Below are positions 16,364 to 36,845 of a stretch of 40,894 nt of DNA, piece by piece (the first letter of the stretch is position 1; each line of letters begins with the position of its first letter). Below the pieces are notes generated by a model. The model saw nothing but the letters and a program-made list of their open reading frames with translations. It was not told the DNA's origin and searched no databases. The DNA comes from an uncultured Clostridia bacterium (GTDB lineage: Bacteria > Bacillota > Clostridia > Oscillospirales > Ruminococcaceae): the NCBI GenBank assembly GCA_947626755.1, contig CANQTP010000024.1, forward strand, positions 1-40,894, in the 5' to 3' direction. Position numbers and translations under genes: made by a program.

Positions 16364-17080
16364 GTGCGGAATGTTGTCGGAAGCGAGCGCAGCCGTTCGG
16401 GCATAGGCACTTACGGCGAAAAGACCGTCCACGCCGTACTTAAAAACTATTTTGAACCGTACTCTGAAAGCCATGAACAGAAGGTCGGCGGATTTGTTGC
16501 GGATATTGTGGGGGAAAACGGCATAATTGAGATCCAGACGGCGGGATTTGAAAAACTGCGGAAAAAGCTTGAAGTTTTCCTTTCTGTCAGCAGGGTTACG
16601 GTGGTGTATCCGATTCCGAGAAACAAGTGGATAATCCCCATAGATCCCATCACGGGGGAACGGGGAAAACGCCGCAAGTCTCCCGTTACGGGCGTACCGT
16701 CAGACGTTTTTCCCGAACTTTATAAAATAAAGCCGTTTCTTGCGGACGAAAATTTCCGACTTTGCATTGTTATGCTCGATGTGGACGAATACCGCATTCC
16801 GCCCGAAAAGAACGGGAAAGGCAGGCGGCGGGGCTATGTGAGATATGATCGTATCCCGCTTGATATTGCGGAGGAGATATACATTGGCGGCGATGAAGGC
16901 TGGGGATATTTCATACCTGACGGACTTCCCGAAGAATTTACTTCATACGATCTCGGGAAATTATCTGGCGTTGGTCAGAGTTACGGCTCGTTCATGCTGA
17001 ATATACTTTCGGCGGCGGGAGCTGTTGAACGTATCGGCAAGCGGGGGAGAAGCTATCTTTACAGGATCTGCGGAAGATGA
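16364..17080 (+). CDS. Uncharacterised protein, possible PD-(D/E)xK-like fold with C-terminal winged helix
   Basis: At least 238 residues. The N-terminal half has the layout of a restriction-endonuclease-like core: GTYGEKTVHAVLKNYF (helix with Glu), then FVADIV (Asp), then IIEIQTAGF (Glu-x-Gln in place of the usual ExK). The C-terminal 60 residues (FTSYDLGKLSGVGQSYGSFMLNILSAAGAVERIGKRGRSYLY) look like a winged helix. The GTG at 16364 has no ribosome site, while a perfect GGAGG at 16326-16330 is 6 bases before an in-frame ACG at 16337, so translation probably starts at that ACG and adds nine residues (TDREKFFDS). It lies just upstream of the Ter-type operon but behind its own promoter region. 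Function is unknown. Confidence 0.65.
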   Translation: MRNVVGSERSRSGIGTYGEKTVHAVLKNYFEPYSESHEQKVGGFVADIVGENGIIEIQTAGFEKLRKKLEVFLSVSRVTVVYPIPRNKWIIPIDPITGERGKRRKSPVTGVPSDVFPELYKIKPFLADENFRLCIVMLDVDEYRIPPEKNGKGRRRGYVRYDRIPLDIAEEIYIGGDEGWGYFIPDGLPEEFTSYDLGKLSGVGQSYGSFMLNILSAAGAVERIGKRGRSYLYRICGR

Positions 17081-17144
17081 AATGTTCCTCAGAGTATCAT
17101 TGGGGACGTTTTCCTGCAAAATTTCGGATTCTTGTCATTTCCTA

Positions 17145-17173
17145 TTGCAATAATTACCGAAATGTGTTATAAT
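17145..17173 (+). promoter_or_regulatory. Extended -10 promoter of the Ter-type operon
   Basis: TTGCAA (17145-17150) and TATAAT (17168-17173) are 17 bases apart, with TGT before the -10. The leader is about 90 bases to the vWA start codon. No other promoter-like site was seen down to rlmH, so this one may drive the whole run. Confidence 0.75.
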
Positions 17174-17271
17174 CATAACATCGGTGTGTTTTGAGAGAAG
17201 CATTTCACGGAAACTGTGATATTTGGTCTTTATATATAAAATTTCCGTATTTGAAAGGCAGGTATATTTTT

Positions 17272-17913
17272 ATGTCAGAATTTACAAGGCGGCTCCCCGT
17301 TTATCTGCTGCTGGATATTTCAGGCTCGATGATGGGAGATCCAATAGAAGCCGTAAGAAACGGCGTCCGCGCGCTTATTTCGGAACTGAGGAGCGACCCG
17401 CAGGCGCTGGAAACAGCATATCTTTCGGTGATAACTTTCAATTCTGCGGCAAGACAGGTAGTCCCGCTGACAGAACTTATGATGTTCAGAGAACCGCCGT
17501 TGAACGCGGGCGGAGCAACGGCTTTCGGTGCGGCGTTAAGGCTGCTTGCGGAATGTATCCGAGCCGAGGTGCGGAAGTCCACCGAAACGCAGAAAGGCGA
17601 CTGGAAACCGCTGGTTTTCATTCTGACCGACGGCGCGCCTACCGATGAATGGCGTGCTGCGGCTGCCGAACTCAGAAGCACTCACCCTGCAAATATTATC
17701 GCCTGTGCGGCAGGCGCAAATGCAGATACAACGATATTAAGGGAACTTACCGACTGCGTTCTGCTTATGAATAACCTTTCGGCAGGGGATCTGTCGCAGT
17801 TCTTTGCGTGGGTATCAAGTTCGGTAAAGATGTCCTCAAAGAGCCTTGACGCAAAGCCCGGGGCAAATATCGAACTTCCGCCGCCGCCGCAGGGATTTGT
17901 TATCGTTCCCTGA
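17272..17913 (+). CDS. von Willebrand A-domain protein, TerY-like
   Basis: This 213-residue protein is almost entirely one vWA domain. The metal-dependent adhesion site is intact: DISGS near residues 16-20, Thr in GGATAF near 83, and Asp in LTDGAPTDEW near 120. It lacks a signal peptide, so it is cytoplasmic, like TerY. It ends in a Pro-rich tail (PPPPQGFVIVP). The ATG at 17272 follows AAAGGCAGG; an upstream TTG at 17191 is less likely. It is the first gene of the operon, with 17 bases to the phosphatase. The vWA-PP2C-kinase order matches the TerY-P triad of Ter stress-response systems, where TerY is thought to act as scaffold. Confidence 0.88.
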   Translation: MSEFTRRLPVYLLLDISGSMMGDPIEAVRNGVRALISELRSDPQALETAYLSVITFNSAARQVVPLTELMMFREPPLNAGGATAFGAALRLLAECIRAEVRKSTETQKGDWKPLVFILTDGAPTDEWRAAAAELRSTHPANIIACAAGANADTTILRELTDCVLLMNNLSAGDLSQFFAWVSSSVKMSSKSLDAKPGANIELPPPPQGFVIVP

Positions 17914-17930
17914 CGTTTACGGAGGCTTTA

Positions 17931-19133
17931 ATGGAAAATAATAATATTCTCACCGACAGAGACGTTACCGAACACACCGCTTCAATGTGGAAATACAACC
18001 CTGTTCCCGATTCTCCCGAACCATACTCGGAGGATATGTGCAGCGAAGTTTCGCAGGGCTGTTTTAAGATAACTGCCGCTTCCGTAAGAGGGAAAAAGCA
18101 CAAGCATGACGGTTCAAATCGTGACGACTGCTTTGCTTTCGGGTTTGTGGACAACGGTGTTATAACCGCAGTTTCGGACGGAGCAGGCTCAAAGATGTTT
18201 TCGAGAATAGGCGCAAAATACGCCTGCGAAGCCGTGGTGAATTATGTAAAAGCGGAGTTCTTCGCGCTGAAAAGACGTTTCCCTGACTATGGGGCGGCTC
18301 TCGGAAAACCTCTTGACAGCGAGGATTTCGGGAAGATATGTTCCGAAATCGCCTTTATCCTGCGGGGAAGCTGCAGCGAGGCTTTCACGGCTGTGGAAGC
18401 GGCTTTTGAAAAAAGAAAGACCTATCCCGAATTCATTGAAGCGGCAGGCAGAGAACCCGAGATAAAAGATTTCTCCTGCACGCTCCTTGCCGCGCTGACG
18501 ATCCCCGTGGAAACCGAAAACGGCAGGGAATTCTTCACCGCCGCAATTCAGATAGGCGACGGAATTATTGCCGCCGTTGACGAAAATGCGGCTTTCGGGA
18601 ACGCCCTTGCAGTTCTGGGAACGGCGGACGGCGGGAATTTTTCGGGAGAGACGGAGTTTATAATTTCCGAGCATATACGTTCCGAGGAAAGCCTGATGGC
18701 AAGGACGAAAGTCCGCCGCGGGAAGATGTCGCATCTTATGCTTATGACTGACGGCGTTGCGGACGACTATTACCCCAACGATCCGCAGCTTCTGAGCCTG
18801 TTTATTGATCTGAAACTGAACGGTATAATTCCCTTTGACGGTGAAATTCCCGAAAGCAGGGTGGAGAACATTCCCGAACCCGTGGCATATCCGTGGGTAA
18901 ATGACAGCGATGTGAAATATGCGCTTCAGTATTCGGAAAATGTCATGGCAGCGGCGGGAATATCCCTTGAACAGTTTTGGGAAAACAAGACACTGCAAAA
19001 ACAGGCGTCCCTTGCGGCATTTGGTATTTCACATGAAAAGAACAATGCGGAAATGCTGAAAATATGGCTTGACAACTATGTGAAACGGGGTTCTTTTGAT
19101 GACAGGACGTTATTTTTGTTAGCTGTAAATTGA
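17931..19133 (+). CDS. PP2C-family Ser/Thr protein phosphatase
   Basis: This 400-residue protein is a metal-dependent phosphatase that would reverse the action of the adjacent kinase. PP2C motifs are in place: DDCFAF with Asp near 66, VSDGAGS near 83-88, LMTDGVADDYYPND near 271 and DDRTLFLL near the C-terminus. The insertion between the early motifs is longer than in PrpC/Stp-type enzymes, a feature of Ter-associated phosphatases in my reading. ACGGAGG precedes the ATG, and the kinase start follows 14 bases after the stop. There is no membrane segment. Confidence 0.88.
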   Translation: MENNNILTDRDVTEHTASMWKYNPVPDSPEPYSEDMCSEVSQGCFKITAASVRGKKHKHDGSNRDDCFAFGFVDNGVITAVSDGAGSKMFSRIGAKYACEAVVNYVKAEFFALKRRFPDYGAALGKPLDSEDFGKICSEIAFILRGSCSEAFTAVEAAFEKRKTYPEFIEAAGREPEIKDFSCTLLAALTIPVETENGREFFTAAIQIGDGIIAAVDENAAFGNALAVLGTADGGNFSGETEFIISEHIRSEESLMARTKVRRGKMSHLMLMTDGVADDYYPNDPQLLSLFIDLKLNGIIPFDGEIPESRVENIPEPVAYPWVNDSDVKYALQYSENVMAAAGISLEQFWENKTLQKQASLAAFGISHEKNNAEMLKIWLDNYVKRGSFDDRTLFLLAVN

Positions 19134-19147
19134 TCCGGAGGAATCAT

Positions 19148-20617
19148 ATGAACAGGATAGCCGAGGCAACTCTTGCGAACGGCAGGAAAATACCTTATGT
19201 TATAACTGATAACCCGCCCCGGGGCGGCATGAAATACACATATTTTGCTCCTGACAGATCCTATGTGGTGCAGTTCTACAACGACCCGTCAAAAGTGGAC
19301 AGGAACATGACTGCCCGCCTTGAAGCGATAATCGGCAGATACAACCCCACAATTCCAGAATCAAAGGGCGGCGCTGTGGGCGGAGATGAAAAGCTTGCAA
19401 AATATTTTGCGGAAAGATTCTGCTGGCCTACCGACCTTGTGGTGGCGCCGGAAATAGGACTGGTTTCGCCCGCATACCCGAAAAGTTTCTTCTTTGACGA
19501 ACACGCGTCAAAATTTCTGGAACTGAAAGGCAAGGACAAGAAAAGCAACTGGTTCACTTCGGGAAACAGGCGTTTTCTGAACAAGTCCGAACTGGGAGAT
19601 TTCCGTTCAATGCTGCAGATGTCGCTGCTGCTTTCCCGCTCAATAAGGCGTTTGCATCAGGCGGGACTTGCGCATTCCGACCTTTCAAATAACAATGTTC
19701 TCATAGACCCAAAAAGCGGGAACTGCGTTGTTATCGACATTGATTCACTGGTAGTTCCGGGACTTTTCCCTCCCGAAGTTGCGGGAACGCGGGGTTATAT
19801 TGCTCCCGAAGTTCTTGCCACAATGGAACTTGACAGGAACGACCCGAGGCGGGTAGTTCCCGGGTCGATGACCGACCTGCACGCGCTGGCGGTGCTTATT
19901 TACGAATATCTTTTCCTGCGCCACCCGCTTATGGGACCGAAAATTTTCTCCGCGGAATCGGCTGAAAAGGACGATTTCCTCGGGCTTGGAGAAATGGCGC
20001 TTTTCATAGAAGATCCGAAAGACAGTTCAAATCGCCCCGCTTCACTAAAAAATACGATCAAAGACGTTGGTCCCGTTCTGGAAAAGCTGTTCCTGCGGGC
20101 ATTTGCGGAAGGTCTGCACGACCCGCCGCTGCGTCCGTCGGCTATGGAATGGGAACAGGGACTTGTAAAGACTTGGGATATGCTTCACAAATGTTCAAAT
20201 CCCGACTGCGAGAAAAAATGGTTCGTACTTTACGATTCGGCAGATCCCGTTTGCCCGTTCTGCGGACAGAGGATAGCGGAGAAGAATGTTGTGCGGTTCG
20301 AGCTTTATTCCGAAGTGCGGGGACATTCGGGGGAGTGGAAAAAACATTCCGAAATGGATATTGTAAACAATACCCCGCTTTTTAAATGGCACACCCACAG
20401 CAATATTTTTGCGGACGAAAAAGCGGACGGCACAATGCAGGCTTACGCTTGCTGCCACAACGGCGAATGGTTCGTGATAAACACCCACGCGGAGGGAATG
20501 CTTTCACCGCAGGGGAATCCCGTTCCCAAAGGACAGGCTATACGCATTTCGGACGGAACGGTTTTCCGCGCGTCCTCCGACCCACGGGGAATGGTAATAA
20601 AAGTAAGGATAATTTAA
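19148..20617 (+). CDS. Ser/Thr protein kinase with zinc ribbon and FHA-like C-terminal domain
   Basis: The 489 residues contain a kinase domain with the catalytic loop HSDLSNNN (about 176-183), metal-binding DID in place of DFG (about 196-198) and GYIAPE (about 216). The Asp and Asn of the catalytic loop are kept, so it should be active. A zinc ribbon (CSNPDC near 349, CPFCG near 369) joins it to a C-terminal beta domain of about 105 residues that resembles FHA phosphothreonine readers (ending GQAIRISDGTVFR then VIKVRII). This architecture is that of the TerY-P triad kinase. ATG 19148 follows CCGGAGG; the in-frame TTG at 19130 precedes that ribosome site and is rejected. Confidence 0.88.
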   Translation: MNRIAEATLANGRKIPYVITDNPPRGGMKYTYFAPDRSYVVQFYNDPSKVDRNMTARLEAIIGRYNPTIPESKGGAVGGDEKLAKYFAERFCWPTDLVVAPEIGLVSPAYPKSFFFDEHASKFLELKGKDKKSNWFTSGNRRFLNKSELGDFRSMLQMSLLLSRSIRRLHQAGLAHSDLSNNNVLIDPKSGNCVVIDIDSLVVPGLFPPEVAGTRGYIAPEVLATMELDRNDPRRVVPGSMTDLHALAVLIYEYLFLRHPLMGPKIFSAESAEKDDFLGLGEMALFIEDPKDSSNRPASLKNTIKDVGPVLEKLFLRAFAEGLHDPPLRPSAMEWEQGLVKTWDMLHKCSNPDCEKKWFVLYDSADPVCPFCGQRIAEKNVVRFELYSEVRGHSGEWKKHSEMDIVNNTPLFKWHTHSNIFADEKADGTMQAYACCHNGEWFVINTHAEGMLSPQGNPVPKGQAIRISDGTVFRASSDPRGMVIKVRII

Positions 20618-20638
20618 GGAATTGGCAGGTGAAATTAA

Positions 20639-22678
20639 ATGGCAGTATCGGAGCTGAACGGCTTGTCGGGACTTTCCGACAAGGAAGCGGAAGCGGCGGA
20701 GCGGAAGTACGGGGCAAATGCCGTGGCTTTCAAGGGCTCGCTAAGAAGTTCATTTGCGGAGTCGTTTTCGTCGCTGTCGGTGCGGCTGCTGATAATTTCC
20801 GTGCTGTCCGATGTGGTTTTGCTGCTTCTGGGAATGTTGGGTTTTGCCCCTGCTTTCGGTGCGTATGAAAGGACGGTCACTGTTTTTGCGGCAATGCTTA
20901 TAATAGGAATAATCGGCGGCGTAATGCGTGAAAATTCCCGTAAAATACTGTGGGAAAGCTTTTCCGTACTGCCGAAAGGCGAATGCAATGTGATACGGAA
21001 CAGGAAAGCTGTTATAATTCCCGCCTCGGAAGTCTGTACAGGCGATGTGGTCATCGTTTTTGACGGGGACGTTATCCCCGCGGACGGCGTTGTGATTGAC
21101 GGTTTCATAACGGTGGAACAGTCCGCTCTCGGTTCGTCAGTGCCTGTGGAAAAAACTGCCGCTCCCGACGGTTACCGTCACGGCGGCATGAATATAAAAG
21201 ACCCGTACAGCGTTTACTGCGGTTCTTCGGTAGTAAAAGGTTTCGCGGCGGTGAAAATAACAGCCGTGGGCGAAAATACCCGCCTTGCAAAGAAGTCGGA
21301 GGACGCTGTTCACGAGATCCCCGAAACTGCGTTTTCGGGCATAAAAAAGCTTGACGCGGTAACGGGAATTATCCTTGCGGCGATAGTTATTACCGTTTTA
21401 ACTGTAAACGGCGCGGCGGCGGGGAATTTCCCCGGCGGGCTTTTTCAGGGAATATCCTGCGGCGCGCTGATTCTTTCGGCGGTGACCGTGGGCGGGAAAG
21501 CCATCGTCCTGAACGCTTTCGGAGCGGATTCTGTAAAACGTCTGAAAGACGGCGGAACATTCCTGCAAAGCGGCGAATGTCTTGCAGAAGCCTGCGGAAC
21601 GGACATTATTATGACCGAAAGAGAAGGCATGATAACTGCGGGAAAATACGTTGTAAGCGGATTCATTGACGGCAGCGGAAAGGAATACGGGAAATTTTCC
21701 GAAATAAGCAAAGGTCTTGCCAAATTCCTGAAAACAGCCGTGCTTGCGGCGGTGAACGTTGGCATTTATGGCGGAGAAGCCGTCGGCGGGAATTCCGCCG
21801 ACAGGGCGATATTCGGATTTATCGGCGGCGGAAGCGAGAATATGAAATTGCAGACCGAAGCGGAGGGGAACGGCATTTACGGCGTTACAGTCACTCTCGG
21901 GAACGGTCTGGCGACTGTTATCCGCGGAAGTTCGGACGCCGTTCTGGAACGCTGCGGCGAGTATTTCGGCGCGGACGGCAAAAAGCACAGAATAACCAAT
22001 AAGGACGCTCTCCGCAAGCTTGCAGAAACTCTACGCCTGAACGGAAAGGATATTGCGGCGTTCGGCTTTTCCGACAAGGGGATAAAAGGCGGGAATGTTC
22101 CCGAGTCCGGCTGTGTATTTGTTGGATTTATAGCCTTGCAGGACGGCTATCCCGAAGAAACTGCAGATTCTGTAAAATGCCTTAAATCCCGCGGAATAAA
22201 GACCATGATAGTGACTTCGGGCAGCAGGGAGAATATCCTGTTCACCGTGAAATATGCGGGGATAAAGAAAAGCGGCGGCGTTGTGGTGGACGCGGAGCAG
22301 CTTGGGAAAATGAACGCGGCGCAGCTTTCCGAACAGATAGAAAAGATAAATGCCGTTGTGGGAGTTTCCGCAAGGGAGAAGCTTCGGCTTGCAAATACCG
22401 CCCGCCGCAAAGGAAAAAACCTGCTTTTTGCGGGGAATTTTGCTGAGGACGCGGCTGTTCTTCGGGAATCGGCTGTTTCCATGGCTTCCGCTTCCGCGCC
22501 CGCTTGTGTGAAACAGGTAAGCGGCGCATTTGCGGAAAATGACAAGCTTGGCATAGTTTGCGCCGAAAAGCTTATTTCAGAATCGGTCAGATTCAACAGA
22601 AGCTATAAAATATTTTTGATACTGCGGGCGGTGCTGGCGCTTATGCTTTCCGCTGCCGTGATGTTCTTTGGGTGGTGA
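20639..22678 (+). CDS. Catalytically dead P2-type ATPase homologue in the Ter-type operon
   Basis: The 679 residues follow the Ca2+-ATPase plan: cation-ATPase N-terminal segment, two membrane helices, actuator domain, two helices, P and N domains, and one last helix. Every catalytic signature is altered: actuator TGES reads LGSS (about 164-167), DKTGT reads EREGM (327-331), the DPPR region reads DGYP, TGD reads TSG (about 526-528), and GDGxND reads AGNFAED (598-604). Neighbouring scaffold is well kept (VIPADGVVIDG, VIRGSSDAVLERCGEYF, GFIALQD). The C-terminal transmembrane bundle is reduced to one helix. It cannot form the phospho-intermediate; a membrane sensor or anchor is inferred. It lies 21 bases after the kinase gene and its stop overlaps the next ribosome site. 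Confidence 0.82.
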   Translation: MAVSELNGLSGLSDKEAEAAERKYGANAVAFKGSLRSSFAESFSSLSVRLLIISVLSDVVLLLLGMLGFAPAFGAYERTVTVFAAMLIIGIIGGVMRENSRKILWESFSVLPKGECNVIRNRKAVIIPASEVCTGDVVIVFDGDVIPADGVVIDGFITVEQSALGSSVPVEKTAAPDGYRHGGMNIKDPYSVYCGSSVVKGFAAVKITAVGENTRLAKKSEDAVHEIPETAFSGIKKLDAVTGIILAAIVITVLTVNGAAAGNFPGGLFQGISCGALILSAVTVGGKAIVLNAFGADSVKRLKDGGTFLQSGECLAEACGTDIIMTEREGMITAGKYVVSGFIDGSGKEYGKFSEISKGLAKFLKTAVLAAVNVGIYGGEAVGGNSADRAIFGFIGGGSENMKLQTEAEGNGIYGVTVTLGNGLATVIRGSSDAVLERCGEYFGADGKKHRITNKDALRKLAETLRLNGKDIAAFGFSDKGIKGGNVPESGCVFVGFIALQDGYPEETADSVKCLKSRGIKTMIVTSGSRENILFTVKYAGIKKSGGVVVDAEQLGKMNAAQLSEQIEKINAVVGVSAREKLRLANTARRKGKNLLFAGNFAEDAAVLRESAVSMASASAPACVKQVSGAFAENDKLGIVCAEKLISESVRFNRSYKIFLILRAVLALMLSAAVMFFGW

Positions 22679-22682
22679 GGAT

Positions 22683-24014
22683 TTGCCGTCTGATATTGAA
22701 AAATTAATTGAAAAAGCCGTTGAGAATTCTGTAATAGAAATTCCCGCGGGGGAATACGAGGGCGGCATTGTCATTGGCAAAAGCTGTACCATTCGCGGAA
22801 ACGGCGCAGTCATATGGAGCGTTTCGGGACCTGCGCTTATAGTAAATGCAGAAAATGTTCATATTGAAAATTTAAAGATACTGCTTACGGGAAATAAACT
22901 TCCCGACAGCAAGAATATATCAGTTTACTGTCATTACCCCGACACGAAATTTGCGGGCGTGGAGGTAAACGGCGCGGTAATAGGCATTCCCGACGAGGAG
23001 CAATATTGGGGAATTCCCGCGGCGCTTTCGCTGGGGACTGTTCCCGCCGAAAAGGAAACGTCCTTTGCTTTTGAGGTGTATGTTCCTACAGACGCGGACA
23101 TCAACTGCGGAATGTACTGTCTGCGGCTTTCGCAGAATTATCTTTTCCGCGGTTATAACAACGTTTCATTTACCGTGGATAAACTGAAAAGCGGTGCGCT
23201 TATCTACGGGGAAATATTTGTCGTTTCCTCCGTAACGGGAATTATCCGCAAGATAACGGTAAGCGGTTTCGCAGGCGAGGAAATTTCCGCGCCGAATTAT
23301 ATGCTTTTCACGGCGGACAGGGAAGCCCCCGAAAAGCACGGCAAGATGATAGAAAATTTCGATCCTCTCGAAGCGGCTTCAACTCCCGAGCCCGAACCTG
23401 AGAAGGTGGAAATTCCCGCGAAAAATTCTCCTGAAAATGACATAATTCTTGAAGAAATAAACGAGGCGGAGTTCGGCGGGGATATCCGCGAGGAAAACGT
23501 ATTTCTTGTTCCCGAACAGCGCATACCGCTTCTGCCGAGAAAATACTGCATTGAGGTAGGATATAAAAGCACTCGCGCGAAACTTGACATTGACGGGTAT
23601 CTTTTCATGCTTGGTGCAAGCGGACGCGTGGAAAGCAATTCGGGTATGATATTTTTCGGGAATAACCACTCAAAATGCGGAAGCGTTCGGTATATAAATT
23701 CTCCCGACAGGCGGGCAATGGTAATTGACTTGGGAACAATTCCCGAAAGCATAAAACGAATGGTTCTGCTTTTTTCAATATACGGCAGCAGTCCCATGCA
23801 GACATTTGACAAGCTTGTGGAAGGCGAGATAAAGATCCTCTGCGAAAACGGAGTCTGCCTGCACCTGACACTTGAAAAGAACATTCGCTGCCGAACAATA
23901 CTTGCCCTCGGATTTGACAGAAATGACGGCGTCTGGGAACTTATCCCATCGGGAAAAGGCGTTTCAATGCCCCTTGAGGACATCTGCAGAAGTTACGGCG
24001 TTACCATACTGTAA
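22683..24014 (+). CDS. Beta-helix-TerD fusion protein
   Basis: About 443 residues. The N-terminal 75 residues look like right-handed beta-helix coils (IPAGEYEGGIVIGKSCTIRGNGAVIWSV, then VHIENLKI). A central beta-rich domain (about 90-210, with AALSLGTVPAEKETSFAFEVYVPTDADI) follows, then a linker, then a TerD domain from about 287. The TerD domain has LDIDGYLFMLGASGRVESNSGMIFFGN, VIDLGTIPESIKRMVLLFSIYG and ILALGFDRNDGVWELIPSGKG, matching the fold. The acidic Ca2+-binding loop typical of TerD is shortened to INSPDRRA, though the LDID acidic pair is kept. The start is TTG 22683 behind GGTGG; an in-frame TTG at 22668 lies inside the previous gene. It has no signal peptide. Confidence 0.75.
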   Translation: MPSDIEKLIEKAVENSVIEIPAGEYEGGIVIGKSCTIRGNGAVIWSVSGPALIVNAENVHIENLKILLTGNKLPDSKNISVYCHYPDTKFAGVEVNGAVIGIPDEEQYWGIPAALSLGTVPAEKETSFAFEVYVPTDADINCGMYCLRLSQNYLFRGYNNVSFTVDKLKSGALIYGEIFVVSSVTGIIRKITVSGFAGEEISAPNYMLFTADREAPEKHGKMIENFDPLEAASTPEPEPEKVEIPAKNSPENDIILEEINEAEFGGDIREENVFLVPEQRIPLLPRKYCIEVGYKSTRAKLDIDGYLFMLGASGRVESNSGMIFFGNNHSKCGSVRYINSPDRRAMVIDLGTIPESIKRMVLLFSIYGSSPMQTFDKLVEGEIKILCENGVCLHLTLEKNIRCRTILALGFDRNDGVWELIPSGKGVSMPLEDICRSYGVTIL

Positions 24015-24026
24015 AGGAAGATAATA

Positions 24027-24803
24027 ATGGCAAGGATCTACCCGCTGTTCTCGTCAAGCAAGGGGAACAGCACATACATAGGAAACCGCGACTCGGGAAT
24101 ACTTATCGACGACGGAGTTTCATATTCGCGTTTGAAAAAGGCTCTGGAGCTGAACGGCATTTCCGTAAACGCCATAAAAGGCGTATTTGTTACTCACGAA
24201 CACAGCGACCACATAAAGGGTCTGGATATTTTCACGAAGAATATAAAAGTTCCCGTTTTCGCGCGGGAAAAGACCTGCGAGTATCTGACGGTAAAAGGAA
24301 TTATCCATGGGGAATGTTTTGACATCAGGGACGGTGTGGAGATCTGCGGATCATGCGTTGAAAGCTTTTCCACTTCCCATGATGCCTGCGATCCATGCGG
24401 CTACAGGATAACCTTTCCCGACGGAAAGACTGCGGCGGTCTGCACCGACCTTGGTTATGTCAGCAATGAGGTGAAAACCGCGCTTTTCGGAACGGACTGC
24501 GTGCTTTTAGAGTCAAATTACGATGTGGAAATGCTCCGCAACGGCATATATCCCTATTATCTGAAAACACGCATTTTCGGGAAAACGGGGCATCTTTCCA
24601 ACCCCGACAGCGGGGAGTTTGCGGCAAAACTTATCAGCAGCGGAACTACACGGATAATTCTCGGACATCTTTCGCAGGAAAACAACACTCCCGAAATTGC
24701 CGAAAGCACGGTTTCCGCCTGTCTCAGCGGATTTAACAGGAACGTTGACTATATGCTTTCCGTTGCGCCCGTGGAAACAAGCGGCGGGTTCGTTTCGATA
24801 TGA
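24027..24803 (+). CDS. Metallo-beta-lactamase-fold hydrolase, YycJ/WalJ-like
   Basis: This 258-residue cytoplasmic MBL-fold protein opens with YPLFSSSKGNSTYIG and carries the zinc motif THEHSDHIKG (about 53-62), later His/Asp ligands (STSHDACDPCGY, CTDLGYV) and the closing ILGHLSQENN. The YycJ/WalJ family consists of nucleases linked to DNA processing and, in Bacillales, to the walKR locus. Here it sits 12 bases after the TerD gene and 7 bases before rlmH, with no WalKR nearby. AAAGGAAG lies before ATG. Confidence 0.88.
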   Translation: MARIYPLFSSSKGNSTYIGNRDSGILIDDGVSYSRLKKALELNGISVNAIKGVFVTHEHSDHIKGLDIFTKNIKVPVFAREKTCEYLTVKGIIHGECFDIRDGVEICGSCVESFSTSHDACDPCGYRITFPDGKTAAVCTDLGYVSNEVKTALFGTDCVLLESNYDVEMLRNGIYPYYLKTRIFGKTGHLSNPDSGEFAAKLISSGTTRIILGHLSQENNTPEIAESTVSACLSGFNRNVDYMLSVAPVETSGGFVSI

Positions 24804-24810
24804 GGTTTCT

Positions 24811-25296
24811 ATGCTGAATGTGAATATTATTGCGGTGGGGAAATTAAAGGAAAGCTATCTGCGGGACGCCTGCGGGGAATATTCCAAGCGGTTGGGAGCG
24901 TTCTGCAAATTGAATATTATCGAGCTTCCCGAAAGCAGACTTCCCGAATCCCCATCGCCCAAAGAGATAGAAAACGCACTTGCCGCTGAGGGAAAGCTAA
25001 TGCTTCCGCTTCTTTCCGCGAAGAACTGTTTCAGCATTGCAATGTGCATTGAGGGAAAGCAGTTTCCCTCGGAGAAGTTCGCGGAAAAAATCGAAAGAAT
25101 TTCCGTTGACGGGAAAAGTGTACTTAACATAGTTATAGGCAGTTCCTGCGGCATTTCCGAGGAGATAAAAGCGGTGTGCGACCTGCGGCTTTCCATGTCG
25201 GAAATGACGTTCCCGCATCAGCTTGCGCGGGTAATGATCCTTGAACAGCTTTACCGCGGTTTTATGATACTTAACGGATACAAATACCACAAGTAA
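24811..25296 (+). CDS. rlmH: 23S rRNA pseudouridine-1915 N3-methyltransferase RlmH
   Basis: This 161-residue SPOUT methyltransferase modifies pseudouridine 1915 in the 23S rRNA decoding-site helix of 70S ribosomes. Signatures are NVNIIAVGKLKESYL at the start, SAM-binding IVIGSSCGISEEI (about 109-121) and the C-terminal LSMSEMTFPHQLARVMILEQLYRGFMILNGYKYHK, diagnostic of the family. Length is normal (about 155-160). The ATG at 24811 lies 7 bases after the YycJ-like stop with GAGG as ribosome site; longer in-frame starts run back into the upstream gene and are rejected. The yycJ-rlmH neighbourhood is common in Firmicutes. Confidence 0.95.
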   Translation: MLNVNIIAVGKLKESYLRDACGEYSKRLGAFCKLNIIELPESRLPESPSPKEIENALAAEGKLMLPLLSAKNCFSIAMCIEGKQFPSEKFAEKIERISVDGKSVLNIVIGSSCGISEEIKAVCDLRLSMSEMTFPHQLARVMILEQLYRGFMILNGYKYHK

Positions 25297-25299
25297 TGC

Positions 25300-25371
25300 T
25301 TAATGCGTAATTCGTAATGCGTAATAAAAAAGCAGGAAACCGAAAATTACGCATTACGAATTACGAATTAA
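25300..25371. repeat. Long inverted repeat (26-base arms, 20-base loop)
   Basis: Arms 25300-25325 and 25346-25371 are complementary except at one position and are made from the AT-rich phrase taatgcgtaattcg. It fills the whole gap between rlmH and the radical SAM gene. With no GC-rich stem it is an unusual terminator; it looks like a small intergenic palindromic repeat (MITE-like or REP-like). Confidence 0.8.
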
Positions 25372-25388
25372 AGTGAGGGTGATGCGTT

Positions 25389-25988
25389 ATGATGACTATT
25401 CTTTATGAAGTGGGAAATAAGCTTTATATCAATCTTACAAACCGCTGTCCCTGTAACTGCACGTTCTGTATAAGGCAGAACGGCGACGGGGCTTACGGTT
25501 CGGACAGCCTGTGGCTGGAAAGAGAACCCGCCGCGGACGAAGTTATTTCCGCAATTGAAAATACCGATATGTCAAAGTATGCGGAAGTGGTTTTCTGCGG
25601 CTACGGCGAACCTATGGAACGTCCCGACGATGTGGCGTATATAGGACGTTTCATAAGGGACAATTACAAAATTCCCGTAAGACTGAATACCAACGGCTTG
25701 GGGGATAAGATAAACGAACGTCCCACCGCGGAACTTCTGGAAGGCGCTGTGGATACCGTTTCAATTTCGTTGAATCAGTGCAATTCCGAAAAATATAATG
25801 CGGTGACCCGCCCGAAATGGGAGGACGCTTTCGAGGCTATGATAGCATTTGCCGCAGACTGTAAGAAATACGTTCCGAAAGTTATGTTCACGGTGGTGGA
25901 CGTTATCCCGCCGGAAGATATAAGCCGCTGCAAAGCCGTGGCAATGTCGCTGGGGATAGAATTAAGGGTGAGGAAATATGACGGATAA
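25389..25988 (+). CDS. Radical SAM protein, TatD-associated type
   Basis: This 199-residue radical SAM enzyme core has the [4Fe-4S] motif CPCNCTFC (Cys spaced x3 and x2) at about residues 20-27, inside NLTNRCPCNCTFCIRQNGDG, then GYGEPMERP and RLNTNGLG, as in the short family annotated TatD-linked radical SAM proteins. Its substrate is unknown. Here there is no tatD next door. Instead the 3' end overlaps the antitoxin gene by 11 bases, which suggests co-translation. Two ATGs stand side by side at 25389 and 25392 behind GTGAGGG. Confidence 0.85.
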   Translation: MMTILYEVGNKLYINLTNRCPCNCTFCIRQNGDGAYGSDSLWLEREPAADEVISAIENTDMSKYAEVVFCGYGEPMERPDDVAYIGRFIRDNYKIPVRLNTNGLGDKINERPTAELLEGAVDTVSISLNQCNSEKYNAVTRPKWEDAFEAMIAFAADCKKYVPKVMFTVVDVIPPEDISRCKAVAMSLGIELRVRKYDG

Positions 25989-33174: not shown

Positions 33175-34230
33175 TTAATGCCACGGAAAATTTTCTGCAA
33201 TTTTGTCAAGCTGTGCGGAAATATCCGAAAATTTTCCGCTTAGATCAAGCAAATTCACATAGAATTTATTGCCGTCTATATCCATAGTGAGCCCATCGAG
33301 CGGGATTATATTATCCTGCGTATTTGCATAAAGCAGCATACCTGAGACTGTTCCGTCAAAATTGCGGATCTCATTTTTAACATAAGTGAATATTTGATAA
33401 AGGTTGTGGGAATGAAATTTTTCACGGTAATTTTCATTCTTTTGCGCCGTAGTCTTTGAATAAAATTTTGCGTCAATTATCAATTTGCTTTTCCGCTCTT
33501 TATCAAAAAGTACCGTGTCAGTCTGCATTTCCGGCAGTAACGGATATTGTTCCGTTACTGCCCATTTTATTTTGGACGGATTCGGAGATAAATTACTGTG
33601 GTGTCTTATAAAATAATTCAGTATAAATTTTTCATAAAGTCTGTTAAGATCATCGTCCGTAAAATCAATAATTTTCAGTTCACCGCTTTCTGTAGAAAAA
33701 AGCATATTTTCGCAGATAACTCTGCATATGCTCATCAGAAAACGGTAACTTTTATTATTTCTGTTGAAATTAAATGCGTTCCAATTTACATTCAATAAAT
33801 TTGCCGCCGAAATTTCGGAAAAATACCTCACAAAATTACAAAGGATCTTTTTCTGCTTTTCATAAATATCCGCTTTGATAAGCAAAAGCATTACGGACTT
33901 TATTATTCGATTCATAAGTGTATCGGTCGTGTAATCATCGTGTTCGCAGATATATCTTCCGTAACGGAAACCGTTTCTGTTCATTGTTCCGGTAATATCT
34001 ATCCTGCCCCTGACGGTGTACAATTCCTCGCTTTTGTATTCGTAATTTTTGAAAAGCCCCTTTTTGAGCTGATATTCCACGCCGTTTATAAGAAGCTGTG
34101 CCATAAGTTTCTGTATATTATCAAATTCTTCCGTATCAACGGAAACTATGCTCTGTTCCGAAAGATCGCGGTAAGCGTAAGCAAGCATATAATAAATATT
34201 CCCGATAGGAATACTGTTTTTATACAACAT
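33175..34230 (-). CDS. mcrC: McrC, endonuclease subunit of a McrBC-type modification-dependent restriction system
   Basis: This 351-residue protein has the McrC opening IPIGNIYYMLAYAY and the C-terminal PD-(D/E)xK nuclease core visible as TVLFDKERKSKLIIDAKFYS (Asp, then IDAK, about 247-266). McrC cleaves DNA when recruited by the GTP-driven McrB ring at modified sites. It overlaps the end of mcrB by 11 bases. Start 34230 has GGTGG 5 bases upstream; an in-frame ATG at 34242 overlaps that site. The gene is AT-richer than the core genes at the left of the window, consistent with transfer. Confidence 0.88.
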   Translation of the reverse strand: MLYKNSIPIGNIYYMLAYAYRDLSEQSIVSVDTEEFDNIQKLMAQLLINGVEYQLKKGLFKNYEYKSEELYTVRGRIDITGTMNRNGFRYGRYICEHDDYTTDTLMNRIIKSVMLLLIKADIYEKQKKILCNFVRYFSEISAANLLNVNWNAFNFNRNNKSYRFLMSICRVICENMLFSTESGELKIIDFTDDDLNRLYEKFILNYFIRHHSNLSPNPSKIKWAVTEQYPLLPEMQTDTVLFDKERKSKLIIDAKFYSKTTAQKNENYREKFHSHNLYQIFTYVKNEIRNFDGTVSGMLLYANTQDNIIPLDGLTMDIDGNKFYVNLLDLSGKFSDISAQLDKIAENFPWH

Positions 34231-36829
34231 TTTTTCCACCATTTTTCAAAAGAGCTTCAAATATTGAACGTTCATCATCGGCTTTTTTCTTATTATCAAA
34301 CCAATATTCCTCAATAATAGGAATAATTTCAAATTCGATAATATTTTTTACGACAGTATCATTTATTTTATCATCATCAAGGCAAAAATAGCTGTGTCCG
34401 ATCTCAAATCCGTCTCCCAGAGAACTATCTTCGGCAATTTCCTTGTTCAGTGAAATAACAGCCTCGATAGTTTTTTTATAAAGAACGTTATTTGTATTTT
34501 CAATTTTTTCTTTAAACAGCTTTTTATCAAAAGCGGGTTTCATCTTAAAGAACGCAAATCTTCTGCGCAAAGCGTGATCTATCATTGCAAGGCTTCTGTC
34601 GGCGGTATTCATCATTCCGATAATATGAACATTCTCCGGAACGGTAAAGGATTCTTTGCTGTAAACAAGTTCCGCGTGATATTTATCTCGCTTGTCCGCT
34701 TCAATAAGCATAAGCAGTTCGCCGAAAATTTTGCTTAAATTTCCTCGGTTTATCTCGTCAATTATGAAAAAGTACTTTCTGTTCTTATCATCATCAGAAG
34801 CAGTCTTACAAAATGTTTTGAATATTCCGTCACGAAGCACAAGACTTCCGTTTTCAACAGGGCGGTAACCCTCAATAAAATCTTCATAGGAATAGCTTTG
34901 ATGAAACTGCACGACCTTTATGCGGCTGTCGTCTTGCTCGCCCATTATTGAATATGCCAGACGTTTAGCGGCGAAAGTTTTTCCCACGCCCGGCGCGCCT
35001 TGCAGGATAATGTTTTTCTTTCCAAGAACCAGAGCGGAGAGCTTGTCGTATTCCGCTTCGTCAAGATATACTTCCTTTAAGAAATCGTCTTTTGTGTATG
35101 GTTCAATGTCTTTTACGGGAGTGTTTTTTGTTTTGTTTGAATAAAGATTATCCCAGTATTCAATAAGCCAACGTGCGGCTTCCGGTCTGACAGCAATACC
35201 CGAACCCTGCGGACTCCATTGCTGTTCCGGAAATTTTTCTTTAAGTGTTTTTTGAGAAATTATTTGTTCTGCCCTGTAATCAACGGCTTTTGTAACACAA
35301 ATATTTATAAGACTTCCAAGCTGTTTCTCTCCGTTTTCGTCTGTATAAGTTCCGCTAAAACTTTCTCCGACGGCATAACCGGACGCAATTATACCTTTAG
35401 GCTCATCTCCAAGTCTTATAATAAATACCCGATCTCCTGCTTTGACTTTTTTGCTTGCACATCTCCAACTGTCAATATATGAACCACCGTTTCTTACGTT
35501 ATCAAGCAGTGTATCAAAACTATGTTGTTTTTCTGCATTTTCCCAATCGTAATGTTTGGGACTGTATGCTAACAGCCATGTATTTATGTTATTATCTGTT
35601 TCATCTGTATCAAACAACATAATAATCTTTTTTGTAAAATCTGTATATTTAGTAATATCCGTCAATGTTTTCAAAGGAAATTTTTCTTCAATGTTCCACT
35701 TTCCTTTATGTGTCCATTTTACTTTACGGATATTAGGATATTCTTGATCGTATTCACTGTTGTATTCGTAGTCTGATTCGACAATACCTCTGCCTAAAAC
35801 TTCGCTTGTTCCGCGTTTAACAAATATTATATCACCGATTTTTATTTCATGTCGGAATTGCCACAAAGCGTGTGCCGAATTAGATTGTGATGTATTGTCT
35901 CCTAATTTGCTTTTAAGTGCAGATTGTATCTCGGATTTGCTTTTGTATTGATCCAGATCTCCGATCTCATGCCAGCCAATGCCCATAATACCGTCATTAT
36001 AATACTGTTCCCATTTTCGGGCATTTTCACCGGGTGCGTACAGCCAATAACGCACACCCGGATCGTCATTATTTTCTTCCGGTATATCAACAATTCCGGT
36101 TTTTGATTCTATCCAAGCAGAATATGTAAGTTCGGGAAATGATTTTATTTCAGATACTCCGGAATTAAATAAAGACATACATTCATCGCACAAATTCATA
36201 TATTCGTTTCCATATGGCAGATTTTTGATTGAAAGCATATGTGCAGACAATTCATCATTAAGTTTTTTCTTTTTGCCGACATAATTCCTGTTGACCGAAT
36301 CAAGGCTAAGAAATCTATATGGTCTTATCCAGTATAATCCCATTGTTATATTCCATTTTATACATATCTGATCATGCACCTTATCATAACATTTGCAAAA
36401 ATAGTTTCGATTTTCCTCCGTATTTGAATCAGCCAAAGTAATTGCAGCCGAAAATAATTCCCATAAATTATCAATATCATTATCGGTACGATCTTTTTTA
36501 AAGCCGAAAAAGTTAGCTTTTAAATTATTCAGCACCGGAATACCATTAAAATTATCCGGCGCATTTGCAGAAATGTCAAATTCTTTAATAAGTCCGTTGA
36601 TTATAGTTATACGGTTAGCGTCAGTGATACCTTTATTGAAAAATCCAAAAAGCGTAAAAGGATCTATATCCTGCAAAGCATTATCTTCTTCCAATTTTTG
36701 AACTTCTTTGCCTATACTTGCGTACACTTTCTGAATTTTATCTAACAGTTCACGCCTATTCTGTCTGTACGCCAACAATTTATCTGCAAAAGCAGTATAA
36801 AACGGTATCCAACTATATTTTTCAGCCAT
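34220..36829 (-). CDS. mcrB: McrB-type AAA+ GTPase with two N-terminal EVE/PUA-like domains
   Basis: The 869 residues have three parts. Residues 1-250 are an unrecognised helical region. Two EVE/PUA-like domains follow in tandem: about 257-395 (YWLYAPGENARKWEQYYNDGIMGIGW) and about 412-560 (TWLLAYSPKHYDW, then GGSYIDSWRCASKKVKAGDRVFIIRLG). An AAA+ motor runs from about 590 with Walker A GAPGVGKT (about 611), Walker B FFIIDEINRGN and the McrB signature MNTADRS (about 738). EVE domains bind modified cytosines, so the pair is the likely reader of modified DNA. ATG 36829 has GGAGG 8 bases upstream; the TTG at 36844 lies inside that site and is rejected. The regulator gene ends 16 bases before. 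Confidence 0.88.
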   Translation of the reverse strand: MAEKYSWIPFYTAFADKLLAYRQNRRELLDKIQKVYASIGKEVQKLEEDNALQDIDPFTLFGFFNKGITDANRITIINGLIKEFDISANAPDNFNGIPVLNNLKANFFGFKKDRTDNDIDNLWELFSAAITLADSNTEENRNYFCKCYDKVHDQICIKWNITMGLYWIRPYRFLSLDSVNRNYVGKKKKLNDELSAHMLSIKNLPYGNEYMNLCDECMSLFNSGVSEIKSFPELTYSAWIESKTGIVDIPEENNDDPGVRYWLYAPGENARKWEQYYNDGIMGIGWHEIGDLDQYKSKSEIQSALKSKLGDNTSQSNSAHALWQFRHEIKIGDIIFVKRGTSEVLGRGIVESDYEYNSEYDQEYPNIRKVKWTHKGKWNIEEKFPLKTLTDITKYTDFTKKIIMLFDTDETDNNINTWLLAYSPKHYDWENAEKQHSFDTLLDNVRNGGSYIDSWRCASKKVKAGDRVFIIRLGDEPKGIIASGYAVGESFSGTYTDENGEKQLGSLINICVTKAVDYRAEQIISQKTLKEKFPEQQWSPQGSGIAVRPEAARWLIEYWDNLYSNKTKNTPVKDIEPYTKDDFLKEVYLDEAEYDKLSALVLGKKNIILQGAPGVGKTFAAKRLAYSIMGEQDDSRIKVVQFHQSYSYEDFIEGYRPVENGSLVLRDGIFKTFCKTASDDDKNRKYFFIIDEINRGNLSKIFGELLMLIEADKRDKYHAELVYSKESFTVPENVHIIGMMNTADRSLAMIDHALRRRFAFFKMKPAFDKKLFKEKIENTNNVLYKKTIEAVISLNKEIAEDSSLGDGFEIGHSYFCLDDDKINDTVVKNIIEFEIIPIIEEYWFDNKKKADDERSIFEALLKNGGKNVV

Positions 36830-36845
36830 TTTCTTAACCTCCAAG

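Follow-up and report, generated by a model that had tools for sequence, protein, structure and literature searches.

The window analysed here, a stretch of 40,894 nt from an uncultured Clostridia bacterium of the gut (Ruminococcaceae) (contig CANQTP010000024.1, assembly GCA_947626755.1), carries on its + strand a five-gene operon at positions 17272-24014. We identify it as a Ter-type signalling operon in reduced form; the type of system is known, and what surprises in this variant is a dead ion pump that has been maintained. The operon begins with a TerY-like vWA protein of 213 aa with intact MIDAS residues (17272..17913; Pfam VWA, E = 6.2e-13), followed by a PP2C-type protein phosphatase of 400 aa (17931..19133; PP2C_2, 8.2e-32) and a Ser/Thr kinase of 489 aa with a Cys4 zinc-ribbon motif and a C-terminal domain whose fold is unproven (19148..20617, with an alternative TTG start possible at 19130; Pkinase, about 4.8e-10). 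The fourth gene encodes a catalytically dead relative of P2-type ATPases, with 679 aa and five predicted membrane helices, M1-M5 (20639..22678; E1-E2_ATPase, 2.2e-19), and the fifth a protein that joins NosD-like rungs, a PapD/ASH/MSP-like domain and a TerD domain (22683..24014, with a start that may lie at 22668; TerD, 4.6e-18). With these starts the gaps between the genes are 17, 14, 21 and 4 bases, in agreement with a first-pass annotation that had described five genes separated by 4-21 bases.

The same annotation had placed the genes behind one promoter. A promoter-like site (TTGCAA-17-TATAAT, the second hexamer preceded by TG; 17145..17173, + strand) lies ahead of the vWA gene and matches 10 of 12 consensus positions. 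Across 20 vWA upstream regions, the window included, the best sigma-70-like match reached at least 10 of 12 in 16 regions compared to 9.9% of 1000 mononucleotide shuffles, and 11 or 12 of 12 in 11 regions (0.6% of shuffles; the window's own match is 10). On the other side, 16 promoter-like sites were found on both strands of 16900-25400 when 8.5 were expected; these sites, some of them within the operon, weigh against a single promoter.

The vWA, phosphatase and kinase triad

The vWA, PP2C and kinase assignments of the first-pass annotation were upheld, including the intact DxSxS motif. Residues D15, S17, S19, T83 and D120 of the vWA protein, which we take to form the MIDAS, were at least 97% conserved in an alignment of 71 rows, as were the expected catalytic residues of the phosphatase (76 rows) and the kinase (82 rows). 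The four zinc-ribbon cysteines of the kinase were conserved in the latter alignment, and no zinc-ribbon Pfam model scored above its cut-off in this protein. An FHA-like tail, also proposed for the kinase, gained no firm backing from sequence: PF00498 matched only 1 of 15 kinases (E = 0.11), and a kinase profile searched against the PDB returned only matches to the RAD53 kinase core.

Kinase relatives also occur on plasmids, with matches in 2345 plasmid records (2189 over at least 80% of the length, all below 60% identity) that came mostly from Klebsiella, Escherichia, Enterobacter and Salmonella. In the two such stretches examined, the kinase lay in ter clusters with TerD, vWA, TerY-C and PP2C genes; the first-pass annotation had stated that such triads accompany Ter proteins. 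These proteobacterial clusters, of Azospirillum (NZ_CP029830) and Moraxella osloensis (NZ_CP024444), have the same vWA-PP2C-kinase order beside TerD. Their kinases were 41-43% identical to that of the window over the full length (Azospirillum, 43%), their best-matching vWA proteins 52-56% identical (Azospirillum, 56% over 188 residues), and two ter-cluster phosphatases 28-30% identical over 273-287 columns (Azospirillum, 28%). As defined in PMC11090510, a TerY-P triad consists of a TerY-like vWA protein, a PP2C-like phosphatase and a Ser/Thr kinase with a C-terminal zinc ribbon. The setting of the kinase in ter clusters and the identities to the Azospirillum cluster thus assign the three genes, at the sequence level, to a TerY-P triad by this definition, with a predicted phosphorylation switch. 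The proteobacterial clusters differ in having several vWA/TerY-C genes and, in Azospirillum, also TerB, TerC, a phosphoribosyltransferase and StiP, whereas the window operon has a P-type ATPase relative instead. No match to TerC or TerB (E up to 0.001) or to StiP was found in its genome.

The dead pump and the TerD protein

The fourth protein was described earlier as a P2-type ATPase stripped of its motifs, and the alterations are as described: DKTGT has become EREGM, PEGL has become VGGK, GDGVND has become GNFAED, and NGES has lost one residue and its glutamate. The membrane helices after M5 are missing, while an active Ca2+-ATPase has about ten; the Listeria Ca2+-ATPase LMCA1 (lmo0841) and SPCA1 contrast with the window pump, which is without TGES, PEGL, DKTGT, GDGxND and those helices. 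The A, N and P domains are present by sequence match and in a predicted model, in which the fold is whole. We compared the pumps of the best 80 loci among 90 relatives obtained by a kinase-alignment scan of named genomes; five pumps cut by contig ends (L060, L088, L093, L101 and L121) were excluded from the count of dead and intact forms. None of the 22 dead pumps examined has kept the glutamate of TGES, the proline or glutamate of M4, or the aspartate of GDGxND. Their frame is open in 22 of 22, and dN/dS was 0.09-0.22 in seven pairs; the dead pump is under purifying selection. To our knowledge, few P-type ATPases have been kept after losing their enzyme function, and a literature search on inactive P-type ATPases found nothing related.

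The TerD domain of the fifth protein was recovered as proposed. The beta-helix to which it was said to be fused amounts to a short stretch resembling NosD (E = 7.7e-8, a score well under the cut-off of the model) followed by the PapD/ASH/MSP-like domain, and residues 1-105 were hardly covered by structural matches. An acidic GDNxTG loop, presumably the Ca2+ site, occurs in 92 of 101 domain rows from short TerD proteins compared to 2 of 78 rows from proteins longer than 300 aa. By alignment comparison the window TerD domain lacks this loop and so differs from the TerD proteins of Klebsiella (2kxt) and Streptomyces (3ibz), as it does in its fusion to NosD-like rungs and an ASH/MSP-like domain. 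It is the sole TerD-domain protein found in the genome.

Conservation of the operon and its intact-pump relatives

Fourteen of 20 genomes from the same genus have all five genes in this order, and in five more (G002, G005, G009, G010 and G020), where contig ends cut the operon, the remaining part agrees; the last, G007, gave no match to the TerD protein. When the own genome and 99 relatives were searched, this protein was matched in 26 of 100 genomes, namely its own, 19 of the 20 that share its genus, and six more. Outside the genus, the match covers nearly the full length in G022 and G041, is best in the N-terminal part in G026 (which also has separate TerDs), and is confined to the TerD domain in G048, G072 and G083. 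The kinase has a patchy distribution in the family, where it was detected at E up to 1e-100 in 11 of 119 genomes (own included) and 10 of 118 genera. The 80 wider loci come chiefly from Clostridia, along with Selenomonas, Centipeda and a single Deltaproteobacterium. In 65 of these loci, vWA and PP2C are the two labelled genes closest to the kinase on its upstream side. Behind the kinase, the first labelled gene encodes an ATPase in 58 loci and a TerD in 11; nine loci have no labelled gene within 3 kb, and in two the contig ends. The conserved gene order on which the first-pass annotation had staked its proposal was therefore found, both in the genus and beyond.

Several types of flanking genes surround the operon among 18 loci compared, which argues that its linkage is not mere synteny. 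In the window, a metallo-beta-lactamase gene begins 12 bases behind the TerD gene and is followed by a gene that we take to be RlmH-like (24027-25296); both may share the operon's transcript. The metallo-beta-lactamase gene was seen behind the operon only in the window and in six genomes of its genus, and not in the others, of which some are cut; it was not counted as a member. Upstream, an open reading frame of 238 aa (16364-17080) had no Pfam match at E up to 1. Farther away the window encodes a FIST sensor-GGDEF protein (739-2517) and, on the - strand, an AAA_5 ATPase with a neighbouring open reading frame (33175-36844), possibly a McrBC-like pair.

An intact ATPase stands next to the kinase in 32 of the 80 loci, usually with more TerDs and often with a biosynthetic module. 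Of the 61 pump frames longer than 600 aa, 60 of which come from the 80 loci and one from the window, 39 are intact, and the dead pump is therefore a derived variant of this operon type. Because relatives have an intact pump in the same slot, it most simply descends from a working pump. The first-pass annotation knew of no characterised system with this exact combination; the arrangement of vWA, PP2C, kinase, P-type ATPase and TerD proved common among relatives. The trees did not agree on the origin of the dead forms. In the kinase tree they fall into two groups, with an intact pump nearer the second group at weak support (80/56), a topology that needs two changes. A single dead-pump clade was not rejected (AU p = 0.605 with 22 rows, 0.166 with four further rows added), and the ATPase tree joins all dead pumps on very long branches.

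Among the closest known arrangements is the Ter operon of Clostridia and Negativicutes with an intact Ca2+-ATPase, as in Anaerobacterium chartisolvens (L087 and L103); it shares the triad, with the ATPase behind the kinase, and in L087 and L103 also has a beta-helix-TerD protein as the last of its TerDs. Such operons differ from that of the window in their intact pump and larger gene content. At least two TerDs are present in 31 of the 32 intact loci with more room (seven have less), compared to one TerD in 22 of 22 dead-pump loci, six of which extend less than 5 kb past the pump. Where a locus extends at least 3.5 kb past the pump, and counting genes anywhere in it, a C-C lyase, phosphoribosyltransferase and StiP occur in 20, 19 and 17 of 33 intact loci versus none of 18 dead ones, AIM24 in 19 of 33 versus 2 of 18, and TerC in 1 of 33 versus 0 of 18, all being lower bounds owing to locus ends. 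The exception is the operon of G041 (L077), with an intact pump, one TerD and a single TerD match in the whole genome; here the other TerDs were thus lost without death of the pump. Two genomes of the window's genus (G012 and G004) have a second Ter locus (L052 and L053) that combines an intact P-type ATPase with three TerDs.

The pump relative and the TerD protein also occur together away from the kinase. We searched ten genomes for TerD: that of L077 and nine with a pumpless kinase locus, one of which (L085) is a contig of 4.4 kb. Each of the ten gave a match, above the cut-off in nine. At four of the ten places fetched (L147-L150), a pump relative of 625-633 aa lies directly ahead of a beta-helix-TerD protein of 404-420 aa. 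The relatives score 76.6-105 bits against the pump profile, and that of L148 reached an hhalign probability of 99.2. These four unlinked pairs are the best evidence that the dead pump and the TerD protein belong together. The kinase loci of the same genomes have kinase and PP2C genes and no labelled vWA. Directly ahead of each pair is a gene of 916-923 aa (L147 8826-11576; L148 212-2983; L149 8973-11738; L150 7528-9999, where it is cut); the two of these genes that were scanned match VWA and TSP3 repeats. As for the remaining places, L153 is a Ter cluster with a full-length ATPase and L155 a plain TerD.

Proposed role of the pump shell

The first-pass annotation had proposed a membrane complex built on the former pump and controlled by the kinase and phosphatase, with TerD as effector. 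We consider a reading of this kind most likely, with a probability of about 0.55: the former pump would be a scaffold in the membrane to which the TerD adaptor attaches, switched by the kinase and phosphatase. The pump shell, whose A, N and P domains retain their fold in the prediction and which might even now change shape or bind nucleotide, would hold the beta-helix/ASH/TerD adaptor at the membrane. The kinase and the PP2C phosphatase would set the phosphorylation state of the pump-TerD pair, with the vWA protein as a putative metal-dependent assembly factor, so that a stress signal would lead to assembly or release of the TerD adaptor and to no ion transport.

Several observations weigh against this scaffold model. 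The phospho-aspartate is retained in 4 of 16 dead pumps of the genus clade and 6 of 6 of the second clade, and some dead pumps might therefore still be phosphorylated. The dead pumps also evolve fast, as in a protein with few precise contacts: at 70-80% kinase identity they share 23% on average (93 pairs), compared to 65% for intact pumps (77 pairs). The four unlinked pairs come from a single clade of the kinase tree, and the pump relative of L148 had no Pfam ATPase domain, its kinship resting on the pump profile built in this analysis (105 bits) and the hhalign match. The beta-helix-TerD protein stands without an adjacent pump in L151, L152, L154 and L156, and nine of the 80 loci have neither pump nor TerD within 3 kb behind the kinase; a pump-TerD complex is therefore not obligatory.

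Other roles would use the shell differently. As a nucleotide or metabolite sensor, its N domain would bind a ligand and the triad would read its state; conservation in stretch 441-480 is among the highest in the pumps of the genus clade (mean 0.70 versus 0.57 overall), and G516 and the P-domain K684 (positions that we take to follow SERCA numbering, as for K515) are kept in 22 and 19 of the 22 dead pumps. K515, however, is kept in only four, and we regard the sensor as unlikely, though the least so of the alternatives. Alternatively, the shell might be a regulatory partner that, when the triad signals, adjusts the activity of the genome's other P2-type ATPase, a 965-aa frame (G000:C27) with TGES, PEGL and DKTGT. 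This frame is unlinked to the operon, a pattern search did not find GDGxND in it, and such a partnership appears improbable. A decaying, functionless remnant of a lost Ca2+-ATPase would fit the truncated, motif-stripped and fast-evolving sequence; the open frames, and above all the dN/dS values, argue strongly against pseudogene decay and leave this reading with very little probability.

We judged an anti-phage defence role to be about as improbable as the regulatory partnership. PMC11090510 reports that TerY-P accompanies CoCoNuT systems and that relatives whose kinase carries an OB-fold act in defence. PADLOC gave weak kinase matches (best 1.9e-6), and PHROG matched single parts (vWA, 2.7e-24; pump, 4.6e-40; TerD, 5.4e-6). 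Three phage records cover 56-63% of the vWA protein at 30-33% identity. The PADLOC matches, however, are to the kinase core only and none was obtained for the other four proteins, the operon is stably present in the genus, and Pfam detected neither a nuclease nor a helicase domain among the five genes. A literature search found no paper on an operon joining TerD with vWA, PP2C, TerY or ATPase, the only match to these terms being a huge-phage preprint; the 2012 Ter paper (Anantharaman et al.), which was outside the reach of this search, may describe an ATPase-bearing operon.

If the scaffold model holds, a P-type ATPase would have become a phospho-regulated pseudo-pump, a receptor or scaffold for TerD. 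The Ter system would have shed its Ca2+ chemistry (the pump, the Ca2+-loop TerDs and the biosynthetic module) and kept the switch, perhaps more than once, a scenario that we offer tentatively, at somewhat less than even odds. We know of no targets of the kinase/phosphatase triads of Ter systems. Besides the triad, only the pump shell and one TerD are conserved in this minimal operon, and the substrates of the triad may therefore well be among these two. Those relatives whose pump at this position is intact offer a natural comparison by which transport could be told apart from signalling.
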